Source: Halomarina litorea (GTDB taxonomy: Archaea; Halobacteriota; Halobacteria; Halobacteriales; Haloarculaceae). From it: a DNA stretch of 64,000 bases. Every line of letters begins with the position of its first letter. The stretch's first letter is position 1. The DNA lies in NCBI RefSeq assembly GCF_024227715.1, contig NZ_CP100448.1, forward strand, positions 248,001 through 312,000, in the 5' to 3' direction. The notes under the pieces are model-generated. The model worked only from the letters and a program-made list of their open reading frames with translations, was not told where the DNA came from and searched no databases. The position numbers and the translations under genes are program-made. Of this stretch, positions 2,668-54,314 are shown piece after piece.

Positions 2668-5193
2668 ATGGCGGCCACCAGCGAGGGCGAGACCATCGAC
2701 CGCCCACTGCTCACGCCGGGGATGCTCCAGCGGCGGAACTACCAGCTGGAACTCGCCGAGGAGGCCTGCCGGACGCACACGCTCGTCTGTCTCCCGACGG
2801 GGCTGGGGAAGACGGCGGTGAGCCTGCTCGTCACCGCCCGCAGGCTCCACGAGGCCGGCGGCACGTCGCTCCTGCTCGCGCCGACGAAACCGCTCGTCCA
2901 GCAACACGCCGACTTCTACCGCGAGGCGCTGACGGTCCCCGACGACGAAATCGTCGTGTTCACCGGGGAGGTCCGCCCCGACGACCGGGCCGAACTGTGG
3001 GAGTCCGCGCGCGTCGTCGTCGCCACGCCGCAGGTGGTCGAGAACGACCTCGTGGGCAACCGCATCTCGCTCGAAGGCGTCACCCATCTCACCTTCGACG
3101 AGTGCCACCGGGCGACGGGCGACTACGCGTACAACTACATCGCCGAGCGCTACCACGCCGACTGCGGGGAGCGACGCTCCCCGGGCAACCGGAACGCTCC
3201 GCGTTCCGGTGACGCCGCCGACCCCCTCGTGACCGGGATGAGCGCCTCACCGGGCGGCGACGAGGAGGAGATACTCACCGTCTGTGAGAACCTCGGTCTG
3301 CGCGAGGTGGCGGTGATGACCGAGGACGACTCCGACGTGAGCGAGTACACCCACAAGACGGAGGTGGAGTGGGAGCGCGTCGAACTGCCCGAGGAGGTCA
3401 TCGAGATACGCGACGCGCTGAACGAGGTCATCTCCGACCGACTGGAGAAGCTGAAGGGACTGGGCGTCACGAACTCCACCAGCCCGGACATGTCCCAGCG
3501 CGATTTGAACAAGATTCGCGCGGAACTCCAGCGGATGATCAACGCCGACCAGTCGGAGGGGTATCAGGGGATGTCCGCGCACGCGGAGATAATGAAGCTC
3601 CGGCGGGCGGTCGAACTCGTCGAGACGCAGTCCGTCGAGTCCACCCGGCGGTACTTCGAGCGCCAGCGCAACGCGGCCCGGTCGTCTGGCGCGTCGAAGG
3701 CCGCCCAGCGGTTCGTCTCCGACCCGCGCGTCCAGGAGGCGATGCGGCGGGCAGAGTCCTACGACGACCTCCACCCGAAGTTCCGCCGGGCGCGCATCCT
3801 CCTCGCCCAGACGCTGGGTATCGAGGGCGGTCAGCGCGTCATCGTGTTCACCGAGTCCCGGGACACCGCCGAGACGCTGACCGAGTTCTTCGGCGGGCAC
3901 TTCGAGACGCGCAAGTTCGTCGGGCAGGGCGACAAGGAGGGTTCCGACGGGATGACCCAGAAACAGCAACAGGAGACGCTCGACGCCTTCCGGGCCGGCG
4001 AGTTCGAGGTGCTGGTCTCCACGAGCGTCGCCGAGGAGGGACTGGACGTCCCGGAGGTGGACCTCGTGCTGTTCTACGAACCCGTCCCGAAGGGCATCCG
4101 CGCCATCCAGCGCAAGGGTCGGACCGGCCGGCAGACCGAGGGGAAGGTCCACGTCCTTCTCGCGGAGGACACGCGCGACGAGGCGTACTTCTGGATCTCT
4201 CGGCGCGAGGAGAAGCGCATGGAGGAGGAACTGCGCTCGCTGAAGGGGATGGCCGGCGAGGTGAACGCCGAACTCGGACAGGCAGGCCTCGACGCCTTCG
4301 AGAGCGCGGCACCCGAGGAAACCGGAGGAGACGAGGACGGGACGCCCGCGAACGCGGAGGCGGACGGCGGCGCCACGGACGAGGAACCGGCGGCCGCACC
4401 CCACGACGGCCAGTCCGGGCTGGACTCCTTCGCGGCACCACCCGACGAACCCGACGACGGGGACGAGGAGACGACCGGCGCCGAGTCCGAGGCCGGCGGC
4501 GAGGAACCCGAGGGCACCGTCGAGACGGCCCGCGGCGACGGCGACACCGTGGAGATCGTCGCCGACCAGCGCGAACTCGACGCGACCATCGCGCGCGACC
4601 TCTCGACGCGCGAGGGCATCGAGACGCGACTGGAGACGCTGGCAGTGGGCGACTACGTCCTCTCGGACAGGGTGGTGGTCGAGCGCAAGTCCGTCGCCGA
4701 CTTCCTCGATACGCTCACCGGCGGCGACCGCTCGATGTTCGAGCAGGTGAAAGACGCCGCGCGGCACTACTCGCGGCCCGTCGTCGTCATCGAGGGCGAC
4801 CGCCTCTACGAGGAGCGCAACGTCCACCCCAACGCCATCCGAGGGGCCATCTCCGCCCTCGCGGTGGACTTCGGGGCCTCGGTGCTGCGGACGACCGACC
4901 AGAAGGACACCGCGGACCTGCTGGAGGTCATCGCCCGGCGCGAACAGGAAGAGTCGAAGCGCTCGGTGAACGTCCACGGCGAGAAGGCCGCCAAGACGCT
5001 CACCGAACAGCAGGAGTACGTGGTGAGCGCAATCGCGGACATCGGGCCGGTGACCGCACGCGCCCTCCTCGAAGAGTTCCGCACCGTCGAGGCGGTGATG
5101 ACCGCCCGCGAGGAGGACCTCCTGGAGGTGAAGGGCGTCGGGCAGGTCACGGCCGAGCGCATCCGGGAAGTCGTCGGGAGCGAGTACGAGTAG
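2668..5193 (+). CDS. hef: Hef: ERCC4/XPF-FANCM-type helicase-nuclease
   Basis: This 841-residue protein has the archaeal Hef layout. The SF2 helicase half has Walker A 'PTGLGKT' (about 43-49) and the DECH box (about 143-146), plus the motif VI region 'QRKGRTGR'. An acidic low-complexity linker (about 545-620) follows. The C-terminal half has an XPF-type nuclease domain with 'ERKSVADFL' (about 672) and a tandem helix-hairpin-helix ending 'VKGVGQVTAERIREV'. Hef processes stalled forks and branched DNA, and in haloarchaea it offers an alternative to Hjc for fork restart. A 16-residue insertion (about 166-181) lies in the helicase half and is encoded by two DNA hairpins (annotated separately). 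The ATG at 2668 is preceded by a short leader. Confidence 0.93.
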   Translation: MAATSEGETIDRPLLTPGMLQRRNYQLELAEEACRTHTLVCLPTGLGKTAVSLLVTARRLHEAGGTSLLLAPTKPLVQQHADFYREALTVPDDEIVVFTGEVRPDDRAELWESARVVVATPQVVENDLVGNRISLEGVTHLTFDECHRATGDYAYNYIAERYHADCGERRSPGNRNAPRSGDAADPLVTGMSASPGGDEEEILTVCENLGLREVAVMTEDDSDVSEYTHKTEVEWERVELPEEVIEIRDALNEVISDRLEKLKGLGVTNSTSPDMSQRDLNKIRAELQRMINADQSEGYQGMSAHAEIMKLRRAVELVETQSVESTRRYFERQRNAARSSGASKAAQRFVSDPRVQEAMRRAESYDDLHPKFRRARILLAQTLGIEGGQRVIVFTESRDTAETLTEFFGGHFETRKFVGQGDKEGSDGMTQKQQQETLDAFRAGEFEVLVSTSVAEEGLDVPEVDLVLFYEPVPKGIRAIQRKGRTGRQTEGKVHVLLAEDTRDEAYFWISRREEKRMEEELRSLKGMAGEVNAELGQAGLDAFESAAPEETGGDEDGTPANAEADGGATDEEPAAAPHDGQSGLDSFAAPPDEPDDGDEETTGAESEAGGEEPEGTVETARGDGDTVEIVADQRELDATIARDLSTREGIETRLETLAVGDYVLSDRVVVERKSVADFLDTLTGGDRSMFEQVKDAARHYSRPVVVIEGDRLYEERNVHPNAIRGAISALAVDFGASVLRTTDQKDTADLLEVIARREQEESKRSVNVHGEKAAKTLTEQQEYVVSAIADIGPVTARALLEEFRTVEAVMTAREEDLLEVKGVGQVTAERIREVVGSEYE
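3163..3210 (+). repeat. in-frame palindromic insertion in hef (two hairpins)
   Basis: A 48-base insert (16 codons) is flanked on both sides by GAC. It holds two perfect inverted repeats. At 3166-3182, a 7-bp stem GGGGAGC closes a GAC loop. At 3188-3210, a 10-bp stem starting ACCGGAACGC closes a TCC loop. Removing it leaves '...YHAD/AADPLVTGMSASPGG', which reads smoothly as the helicase domain. The same kind of stem with the same loop triplets occurs in leuS. Confidence 0.75.
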
Positions 5194-44636: not shown

Positions 44637-44973
44637 ACGACCTTTTACGCTGCGCTCGGGGCGGCTTCGCCGCCCCTCGCTCGGTGAAAGGCGAGCAAAA
44701 GCACTCCCTCACCCGTGAGAGCCATCGGCTCAAGCGGGTTCAGTCGGCCCGCTCGCTCCGGGAGACTCGCGTCGCTCGTCTCCCGTGCTCCCGTTCGCTT
44801 CGTCGCCGGCGCTCGCGCCGGCTTCCGGCGGGACCTTCGGTCCCGCCCAGCTCACGGGAACTTCACTCGCTCGGGGCACAACACGGTACCAGACCACTTC
44901 GTTCGACGAGATTCCGCAACCGCTAGCGGTCCAGCGCACTCCCCCGCGAGCGAGTGAGCCGGGAGGACCCCCT
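44637..44973. repeat. 337-base intergenic cluster of hairpins
   Basis: No gene is evident. Four inverted repeats lie here. 44658-44676: 8-bp stem GGGGCGGC, loop TTC. 44760-44784: 7-bp stem GGGAGAC, 11-base loop. 44805-44822: 8-bp stem GCCGGCGC, loop TC. 44828-44846: 8-bp stem GCGGGACC, loop TTC. ACTCGCTC follows at 44864-44871 and also occurs in the leuS insert and beside tRNA-Ser. The region separates two convergent genes. Confidence 0.75.
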
Positions 44974-51560: not shown

Positions 51561-54314
51561 TCAGTCGATGCGGATTGCGGGCCGACCGGGACGGGCCTTC
51601 TTCGCCACGTCCTCGTCGGCGTCCTCCGCTCGCGAGACGACCACCTCGGCGTCGAACTCGCGGCGAATCAGCCACGCCGCGCGCTGGAGCGTCTCGAACT
51701 CGCGGTCCGGCGAGAGCGCGGGCGTCAGCGACTGGCGTTCTTCCTGTAAGTCCTGCCCGTAGTCGGCGGCCGCGTCGCCGTGCTGTCGAATCTCTTCCTC
51801 TTGCATCAGTTCGGAGATGACGTTCGGCGCGTCACTCTCGATGGCGATATCCAGCGCCCGGTGCTTCCACTCGGGCGCGACGACCACCTCGACGCGTTCG
51901 GGGTCCTCGATGCCCGCCACGTCGATGATCTGACGCACGTCGCTGCGAGTGTTCTCGACCAGTCTGCGCTCCCGGTCGTGGTCTGCGGTGTCGCTCTCGG
52001 GTTCGGGGAAGGGCGCCTCCGCGACGAATCCCGCTCGCGGTTCCCCATCGTCACCGTCGTCGCGCGGCGACGCCGCGCGACTGTCCGCGGAACCTCGTTC
52101 CGCGCTACTCGCTCGTTCCGAGGCGCTCCGCGCCTCGCGGCCCCCCAGCAGTTCCCACAGTTCCTCGCTGATGTGGGGCGTGACGGGGGCGAACAGGCGC
52201 ACGGCCACTCGGAGACCGCGCTCGAACGTCTCGGCGTGGACCGCGTCGGCGTACTCGCGGTAGTTGCGCAGGAGGCCGACCAGTTCGCGCGTCTCGCGCA
52301 GGGCGGTGTTGAACGTCAGCGACTCGTAGTCGGCGCGGGCGACGGCGATGGTGGCGTCTATCTCGCGGGCGACGTACTCCGCGATGTCGTCCTTCTCACC
52401 GGTGGCCGCCCCGGAGTCGAAGCTCTCGACCGTCTCGTGGAGGCGCTGGAGGAACGCGTGGGCCGACTGGACGCCCTTGTCGGTCCAGTCGAAGTCCCGC
52501 TCCGGCTGGGCGGCCTCCATCGTGAACAGGCGGGCGGTGTCCGCGCCGTACTCCGAGACGATGGCCTGCGGAGAGACGACGTTGCCCTTCGACTTCGACA
52601 TCGCCTCGCCGTCCAACTGGACCATCCCCTGTGCGAGCAGGTTCGTGAACGGTTCGCGGTGTGCCAGCCCCTCGTGGTCGGCCAGCACCTTCGTGAAGAA
52701 CCGGGAGTACAGCAGGTGCATCACGGCGTGTTCGATGCCGCCGACGTAGCGGTCGACGGGCATCCAGTCGTTCGCCCGGTCGCGGTCGAACGGCGCGGTG
52801 TCGAGGTCCGGCGAGACGTAGCGCAGGAAGTACCACGAGGAGTCGACGAACGTGTCCATCGTGTCCGTCTCGCGGGTGGCCGCGCCGCCGCAGTCGGGAC
52901 AGGTCGTCGCCTTCCACTCCTCGGCCTCGTCGAGGGGGTTCCCGGTCGTGTTGATGAACTCGGGCAGTTCGACCGGCAGGTCCTCCTCCGGGACGACGAC
53001 GGGGCCGCAGTCCTCGCAGTGAACGACGGGGATGGGCGTCCCCCAGTAGCGCTGGCGGGAGATGCCCCAATCTCGCAGTCGGTACTGGGTGGCCGCCTCC
53101 GCGCCCTCGGTGTCGGCGGTGATGCGCTCGCGGGCCGTCTCGCTGTCCAGTCCGTCGTACTCGCCGGAGTTGACGAGGACGCCGTCGTCCGTGTAGGCCC
53201 CCTCGCTCACGTCGGGCATCTCGGGCGTGCCGTCCTCGCCCTCGGGGGCGACGACGGGGACGACGTCGATACCCATCTTCGTGGCGAAGGCGTGGTCCCG
53301 GTCGTCGTGGCCGGGGACGCCCATCAGCGCGCCCGTCCCCACGTCCGAGAGGACGAAGTCCGCGACGTAGACGGGGACGTCCTCGCCCGTGACGGGGTTG
53401 GTCGCGACGAGGTCCGTCGCGACGCCGTTGGGTTCGTCGCCCTCCGGGTCGGCCACCTCGTTGACGAACTCCCGGACGTCCTCGTCCTCCTCCGCGAGTT
53501 CCTGCGCGATGGGGTGGTCGGGGGCCAGCGCGAAGAACGTCGCGCCGAAGGCGGTGTCCGCGCGCGTGGTGAACGCCTCGACGGTGCCGTGGTCCTCGAT
53601 GGAGAACGGCAGTCGCGTGCCGTGTTGGCGGCCGATCCAGTTGCGCTGCATCCCCCGCACGGAGTCCGGCCACCCCTCCAACCGGTCGATGTCGTCGACC
53701 AGTTCGTCCGCGTACTCGGTGATCTTCAGGAACCACTGGGACAGTTCGCGGGTCTCGACGGGCGTGTCACACCGCCAGCAGAGTTCGGCCTCGCCCTCGA
53801 CCTGTTCGTCGGCCAGCACCGTCTCGCAGGAGGGACACCAGTTGACCTCGGCGTCACGCTGTTCGACGAGGCCCTCCTCGTGGAACCGGGCGAACAGCCA
53901 CTGGTTCCAGCGGTAGTACTCGGGCTTGCAGGTGGTGACCTCGCGCTCCCAGTCGTAGCCGAATCCCATCGACTCCATCTGGCCTTTCATCGTCTCGATG
54001 CAGTCGAACGTCCACGTCGCGGGGTCGCTGTCGTGTTCCTTGGCGGCGTTCTCGGCGGGCAGGCCGAAGGCGTCCCAGCCCATCGGGTGGAGGACGTGGT
54101 CGCCACACATCCGGCGGTAGCGGGCGTACGCGTCCGTGATGGTGTAGTTCCGGACGTGTCCCATGTGGAGTTCCCCGGAGGGGTAGGGGTACATCCCGAG
54201 GACGTACGTCGGGTCCTCGGCGTCGTCGGGGACGTGGTACACCCCCGCGTCGGTCCAGCGGTCCTGCCAGGTTCGTTCGACCCTCGTGTGGTCGTAGCCT
54301 CGTTGGTCCTGCAT
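51561..54314 (-). CDS. leuS: leucyl-tRNA synthetase, bacterial-type
   Basis: This 917-residue class I synthetase has 'YPYPSGELHMGHVRNYT' (HIGH motif HMGH, about 42-50), 'HPMGWDAFGLPAENAAKEHD', an editing domain (about 230-400) and 'AMSKSKGNVVSP' (KMSKS). Two zinc-knuckle-like pairs (CPSC...CWRC and CEDC...CPDC) are visible. The sequence is of the bacterial LeuRS type, as in many haloarchaea. A 35-36-residue insertion (about 726-761) is made of palindromic DNA. ATG 54314. Confidence 0.93.
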   Translation of the reverse strand: MQDQRGYDHTRVERTWQDRWTDAGVYHVPDDAEDPTYVLGMYPYPSGELHMGHVRNYTITDAYARYRRMCGDHVLHPMGWDAFGLPAENAAKEHDSDPATWTFDCIETMKGQMESMGFGYDWEREVTTCKPEYYRWNQWLFARFHEEGLVEQRDAEVNWCPSCETVLADEQVEGEAELCWRCDTPVETRELSQWFLKITEYADELVDDIDRLEGWPDSVRGMQRNWIGRQHGTRLPFSIEDHGTVEAFTTRADTAFGATFFALAPDHPIAQELAEEDEDVREFVNEVADPEGDEPNGVATDLVATNPVTGEDVPVYVADFVLSDVGTGALMGVPGHDDRDHAFATKMGIDVVPVVAPEGEDGTPEMPDVSEGAYTDDGVLVNSGEYDGLDSETARERITADTEGAEAATQYRLRDWGISRQRYWGTPIPVVHCEDCGPVVVPEEDLPVELPEFINTTGNPLDEAEEWKATTCPDCGGAATRETDTMDTFVDSSWYFLRYVSPDLDTAPFDRDRANDWMPVDRYVGGIEHAVMHLLYSRFFTKVLADHEGLAHREPFTNLLAQGMVQLDGEAMSKSKGNVVSPQAIVSEYGADTARLFTMEAAQPERDFDWTDKGVQSAHAFLQRLHETVESFDSGAATGEKDDIAEYVAREIDATIAVARADYESLTFNTALRETRELVGLLRNYREYADAVHAETFERGLRVAVRLFAPVTPHISEELWELLGGREARSASERASSAERGSADSRAASPRDDGDDGEPRAGFVAEAPFPEPESDTADHDRERRLVENTRSDVRQIIDVAGIEDPERVEVVVAPEWKHRALDIAIESDAPNVISELMQEEEIRQHGDAAADYGQDLQEERQSLTPALSPDREFETLQRAAWLIRREFDAEVVVSRAEDADEDVAKKARPGRPAIRID
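52032..52137 (-). repeat. in-frame palindromic insertion in leuS (three hairpins)
   Basis: About 105 bases encode 'EARSASERASSAERGSADSR' and a following acidic stretch, between 'LWELLGG' and 'GFVAEAPFPE'. It contains three perfect inverted repeats. 52059-52081: 10-bp stem GTCGCGCGGC, loop GAC. 52086-52104: 8-bp stem CGCGGAAC, loop CTC. 52119-52137: 8-bp stem CGAGGCGC, loop TCC. ACTCGCTC lies between the last two. Confidence 0.75.

Follow-up and report, generated by a model that had tools for sequence, protein, structure and literature searches.

A 51-nt palindromic element, probably mobile, inserted in frame in conserved genes of the Halobacteriales

The Rickettsia palindromic elements (RPEs; Ogata et al. 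2000, 2002; reviewed in PMC2229807) are palindromic, lack a transposase and are found in spacers as well as in frame within conserved genes. They are 105-146 bp long and are known from Rickettsia; the mechanism of their mobility is unknown and target duplication has not been established (PMC2229807). Coding palindromic repeats have also been described in Methanocaldococcus jannaschii (Suyama et al. 2005) and in Wolbachia (Ogata et al. 2005), both cited in PMC2996958. REPs are 20-40 bp long and mostly intergenic, and the GTAG REPs are tied to RAYT transposases (PMC3733652). In Haloquadratum, the SMRs are ~80-110 bp long with terminal inverted repeats and the PATEs are related to the ends of IS605 (PMC3119063).

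The leucyl-tRNA synthetase (LeuRS) gene examined here lies in a 64,000-nucleotide stretch of the Halomarina litorea genome, referred to as the window. An insert in this gene is likely to be a short, palindromic, non-autonomous mobile element of the Halobacteriales in two copies, one nested in the other, although no movement has been observed and no enzyme has been identified. What has been shown is the existence of the family, its distribution, its empty sites, the locking of coding copies to one frame, the nesting and the pairing kept across copies. By analogy, the behaviour is like that of the RPEs: both are palindromic and transposase-free and occur in spacers and in frame in conserved genes, in both the mechanism of movement is unexplained, and in neither is a target duplication established. 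The haloarchaeal unit is, however, a 51-nt double hairpin found across an archaeal order with a strict frame lock, and the likeness drawn here is one of behaviour alone. It also meets the criteria of an RPE-like class, namely a palindrome in several unrelated genes and in spacers which is in frame in conserved genes and has empty sites in relatives. The M. jannaschii and Wolbachia repeats are likewise palindromic coding repeats inserted in frame but belong to other organisms, and no comparison of sequence or frame lock was made with them. The GTAG- and CGTC-tagged REPs share with the present family short hairpins, many copies, some intragenic copies and a TAG at one end, whereas four haloarchaeal carrier genomes have no RAYT-type transposase. 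The PATEs and SMRs are also transposase-free haloarchaeal mobile repeats without target duplication, and element-in-element insertion is frequent in Haloquadratum, but the relevant sections of PMC3119063 mention no family of coding repeats inserted in frame. No description of the 51-nt family was found in the open-access literature searched, which leaves out most subscription journals. Thus the kind of element is already known from Rickettsia, Wolbachia and M. jannaschii, as are transposase-free haloarchaeal repeats, and on the open-access literature alone the 51-nt family appears to be new.

The LeuRS insert and its nested structure

The gene leuS (51561-54314, minus strand) was identified from its open frame and from phmmer matches to the Thermus and E. 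coli LeuRS structures. It encodes 917 aa and is stop-free throughout. The insert occupies ~52030-52140, that is ~38 codons at about residues 725-762, and encodes the peptide REARSASERASSAERGSADSRAASPRDDGDDGEPRA, flanked by LWELLGG and GFVAEAP and in frame with leuS. The site is behind the anticodon-binding helices, after PHISEELWELLGG; the phmmer alignment with Thermus LeuRS stops at residue 721 and the insert begins four residues later. An AlphaFold model of LeuRS using 14 sequences was poor (mean pLDDT 53.7). The insert falls within a segment of low confidence, 726-763, which is no proof that it is disordered.

A preliminary description of the locus, made from the sequence alone, had reported a low-complexity in-frame peptide between these two flanks and three perfect inverted repeats with 3-base loops (GAC, CTC and TCC) in leuS. 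Both observations held, and the stems lie at 52059-52081, 52086-52104 and 52119-52137, the last having 8 bp and the loop TCC. Stems of at least 8 bp with a 3-nt loop are only modestly in excess, with nine in the window and 0 to 8 in Markov-simulated windows. Single hairpins are therefore not rare in the window and the evidence for an element rests on the family of copies. A frequent form of the hairpin-1 loop, as read on the coding strand in 52059-52137 and in the family alignment, is a GNN triplet (GGA, GAC, GAA, GCA) with a closing C-G pair. GNA triloops form unusually stable DNA hairpins.

The block had been taken for one three-hairpin element. This part of the preliminary description failed, and comparison of short and long forms together with folding replaced the single unit by two nested units of two hairpins each, the 51-nt element lying inside hairpin 2 of an older copy. 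The inner element, TAGCGCGGAACGAGGTTCCGCGGACAGTCGCGCGGCGTCGCCGCGCGACGA, is at 52057-52107 on the minus strand and scored 68.1 bits (E 1.2e-10 in the window) with R2, the second of two covariance models; R1 was built from four copies from the window and its own genome and R2 from 42 aligned matches. Hairpin search and folding placed its hairpin 1 at 52086-52104 (minus strand, 8 bp, loop CTC on the plus strand) and its hairpin 2 at 52059-52081 (minus strand, 10 bp, loop GAC on the plus strand). The 5' part of the outer element, at 52108-52140 on the minus strand, carries outer hairpin 1, at 52119-52137, together with the 5' arm of outer hairpin 2, while the 3' part, CGGTGACGATGGGGAACCGCGAGCGGG, at 52030-52056 on the minus strand, is the 3' arm of hairpin 2. 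Joining 52108-52140 to 52030-52056 restores the outer copy, which folds into a two-hairpin shape identical to that of the inner one. Because outer hairpin 2 is split by the inner copy, the three hairpins seen are both inner hairpins plus outer hairpin 1.

Each copy is thus two adjacent hairpins encoding S-A-E-R-S-S-A-D-x-S-S-G-x-x-P-R-D, and the 51-nt unit can be written as T + 16 codons + GA. Long forms in several genera are a short copy broken by a complete second copy, the long form reading GCGAG/TAGCGCGG...GAGACGA/CGGTGACGAACCGCGAG and the short form GCGAG/CGGCGACGAGCCGCGAG; this comparison defines the ends of the inner unit. The unit starts with TAG, often GTAG or ATAG, adjoining a hairpin, and the base preceding TAG varies. 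No target duplication of the kind expected of a MITE was visible in the nested insertion or in a pair of Natrinema LeuRS genes, although few sites were examined. Long forms are present in many genera, and so it is possible that the composite also spreads as one unit; this cannot be separated from repeated nesting.

Empty sites, copies and host genes

The LeuRS insert of the window is absent from all seven congeners. Direct reading showed this for six of them; in G002, the remaining one, the two matching LeuRS segments are 3 bases apart with 36 query residues missing. The site was also empty in every named haloarchaeon in which a motif located it, the motif having failed to match in part of the 80 named haloarchaea. 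The site in GlyRS is empty in genomes G003, G005 and G006, and HemC is without the element in three congeners. The match in HemC of G002 (L271) contains one internal TGA, which could be a sequencing error or a broken gene. A fourth LeuRS site is filled in Natrinema salsiterrestre and N. mahii and empty in N. thermotolerans, the filled genes being longer by a net 42 or 45 nt. Filled and empty genes from different species differ by several codons beyond the element, which leaves it uncertain where exactly the element ends in host genes.

A blastn search of the 3.9 Mb genome with a 131-base query found copies at E values of 6e-15, 2e-8 and 8e-7, one in a spacer, one in GlyRS (in frame, QEASAERSSAEQSSGDEPRDEEGG) and one in HemC (in frame, EESAERSSADQSSGDEPRDGESEE). 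Covariance-model matches were present in six of the eight genomes of the genus. Across the order Halobacteriales, 116 of the 146 genomes searched held related copies, representing 43 of 57 genera. These genome-wide counts are lower bounds, with few candidates scored per genome. Outside the order no match was found: the 13 matching genomes in a phylum-wide sample of 120 all fall within it. The hairpin-2 pattern CGAGCGG N3-12 CCGCGAGA gave 565 matches in 99 genomes as against 104 for a reversed control, exceeding the control in 83 genomes and falling below it in 2. The consensus long form was unmatched in IMG/VR by blastn, and one 22-base form had no exact match there; carriage by phage or plasmid is unsupported, as far as these two forms go.

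Within the window itself, a probable divergent copy, CGERRSPGNRNAPRSGDAA, is at 3153-3216 on the plus strand (R2 31.0 bits, E 6e-4 in the window), in frame in hef, whose open reading frame is 2668-5193. The preliminary description had noted two loop triplets common to leuS and hef, and hairpins with the loops GAC and TCC were indeed found in hef at 3165-3183 and 3188-3210. A possible divergent spacer copy is at 44799-44859 on the minus strand (R2 31.4 bits, E 5e-4 in the window). The octamer ACTCGCTC, which had been put forward as shared with intergenic hairpin regions, is present there but is not over-represented (10 matches against 5.9 ± 2.6 expected, a number reached by 10 of 100 shuffles), and it was rejected as a mark of the family.

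Some further arrangements were observed. At G000:C1:796234-796519 (L112, L113) several element-like copies follow one another within a single open frame, SADGDPPKAGRESANESSEEQRDSRDS...GSETPRETG...DRESAEQSSDSEEPRDS. At L015 and L017, also in the genome of the window, single hairpins with C(GNN)G loops (GCGGGAC-NNN-GTCCCGC) lie within other open frames, and one of them adjoins a second hairpin, CCGGACGCAGTCCGG; these are possibly related short palindromes. Genome G089 has, at five places (L259-L263), a longer spacer repeat made up of several palindromic units, GAGGGACTCCGTCCCTCG...TAGCGCGG...CCGCGAGCAGACGGCC...CCCGACGAGAAAAAAGG, which includes the 51-nt unit. Its five near-identical copies agree base for base over blocks of 78 to 94 nt, with flanks that differ further out. 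They suggest recent amplification and may represent a recently active form.

Hosts of the coding copies were identified using Pfam and the reading frames. They include PheRS-beta, MetRS, a class I Ile/Val-type synthetase, ribosomal protein S4e and chorismate synthase, together with a dihydrolipoamide-dehydrogenase-like protein, S-adenosylhomocysteine hydrolase, IMP cyclohydrolase, porphobilinogen deaminase, SBP56, helicases, M3 and S9 peptidases and others. LeuRS is occupied at several distinct sites in different species. Apart from the site in the window, there is one after DAFGLPAENAA in G001 and one at the CP1 entry, filled in G003 as well as in several species of Halorubrum and the Natrialbaceae; the fourth is that of Natrinema and Halobiforma. 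At the CP1 entry (L059, L060, L063-L066, L081, L087, L088, L102) the genera with a filled loop include Halorubrum, Haloterrigena, Halostagnicola and Halovivax, and partly decayed versions are seen in other species; transfer between genera could explain this. GlyRS likewise has several distinct insertion sites, while an identical site is filled in different families in PheRS-beta (the TMLKG site) and in an S9 peptidase. A loop of a TrpA-like gene (CMTYYNL..YQ) was also seen to be filled in two different families (L151 in G005, L264 in G089).

Reading frame and pairing

Coding potential was scored for 98 hits on the flanks alone with the element excluded. The flanks were clearly coding for 75, and all 75 of these copies are on one strand. 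By arithmetic the phase is identical in 71 of the 75; the other four have a one-base shift at the edge of the model and their peptides read in the same frame. Coding copies therefore all keep one strand and frame, with the reservation that the 75 are top-scoring matches which include some orthologues and cannot be treated as independent. The consensus is stop-free in all six frames, and one alone is acidic, encoding SAERSSADQSSGDEPRD with a net charge of -3, the other five ranging from 0 to +5. Some spacer copies (e.g. L183) retain the same sequence, which makes the frame a feature of the element itself. The simplest cause of the frame lock is inferred to be selection in an acidic proteome. 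A bolder reading, which we regard as unlikely, is that the insertion process itself fixes orientation and codon phase, beyond any later selection. This could conceivably come about if insertion were coupled to transcription or translation or used target motifs at a set codon position and, if true, archaea would possess a hitherto unknown way of inserting DNA.

The arms of the stems vary between copies yet their complementarity is kept. In 37 distinct aligned rows, standard pairs make up 97.6% of pair cells and 11 of the 15 pairs show changes on both sides. The covariation score was 0.404 as compared with 0.112 in shuffles (0 of 500), and structures slid along the alignment were paired to 70.4% at most. 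The alignment had been fitted to the model, and the arms form subtypes, so that independent events are fewer than cells. In orthologous copies in a thiolase tail, third codon positions which pair with each other co-change synonymously (GAA...CGT to GAG...CGC). No element family in Rfam scored above its gathering score, two tRNAs being the only matches in the window.

The preliminary description had proposed a mobile or amplifying repeat family which survives in essential genes and spacers with frames intact, to be checked by a covariance-model search, a comparison of LeuRS in relatives for empty sites and a test of frame preservation. Copies were found genome-wide and order-wide, empty sites were found and the frame is kept in 75 of 75 coding copies. 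The proposal would have been refuted had all close relatives carried the same insert with none but synonymous changes or had no other copies existed, and neither is the case. It is supported to this extent, the movement itself not having been observed.

Origin of the family and its meaning

In the explanation we favour, the 51-nt element would enter spacers and genes without obvious target duplication. With a length divisible by three and no stop in any of the six frames, it can insert without cutting the host protein short. Insertions with the acidic frame in phase with the host gene would survive in loops and others would be lost by selection; the acidic-frame peptide is rich in Ser and probably disordered, its translation and tolerance being inferred. 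Copies would build up, insert into each other and decay. Movement is inferred to be as DNA, probably via a hairpin single-strand intermediate and an enzyme supplied in trans.

The enzyme could be sought among the RAYT or IS200-like Y1 tyrosine transposases, the family then being a REP-type element whose hairpin is cut at a (G)TAG-like 5' end and transferred as single-stranded DNA. The TAG, often GTAG or ATAG, beside a hairpin at the start of the unit, the existence of GTAG-tagged REPs with intragenic copies (PMC3733652) and the lack of visible target duplication all agree with this. Against it, the unit has two hairpins and is strictly frame-locked in genes. Y1_Tnp (PF01797) is absent from four carrier genomes, G000 (that of the window), G001, G003 and G005, which rules out a RAYT as the required mobiliser; the reading as a whole is unlikely though not excluded. 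It is also improbable that the blocks spread chiefly by recombination, whether gene conversion between copies or exchange of host-gene segments between species. The same sites in LeuRS CP1, the S9 peptidase and PheRS-beta are filled in distant lineages, and arm types switch as pairs, as recombination could bring about. However, unrelated genes and spacers hold copies without common flanks, LeuRS and GlyRS have several distinct sites and the nested 51-nt insertion is clean. Recombination between species may still account for distant lineages being filled at an identical site.

Less likely again is a selected RNA element, the hairpins being conserved in mRNA or termination regions for a regulatory role. 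Pairing is kept across copies, including the synonymous paired third-position changes in orthologous copies, but copies lie well inside unrelated genes, have a patchy distribution among congeners and decay, and there is no match in Rfam. The remaining alternative is an ordinary low-complexity loop extension in a GC-rich genome with an acidic proteome, the hairpins being a by-product of composition. Haloarchaeal loops are often acidic and rich in Ser, and a single hairpin is nothing unusual in the window. This reading is nevertheless contradicted by the results and all but excluded, given the DNA-level homology across unrelated genes and spacers, the reversed-pattern control, the covariation, the frame lock and the restriction to one order in the genomes sampled.

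If the LeuRS insert is, as seems likely, a pair of nested mobile elements, it belongs to a kind of in-frame element whose movement has so far been unexplained. The family spans most of the order as sampled. Among the members of the order are culturable haloarchaea for which genetic systems exist, so that insertion, the choice of frame and the cost to fitness become directly testable. Mobile DNA is indicated as a repeated source of peptide segments in core enzymes, the proteins concerned including several tRNA synthetases, ribosomal protein S4e and enzymes of haem and aromatic amino acid synthesis. This has a bearing on protein annotation, on phylogeny and on the origin of disordered loops in halophilic proteins.
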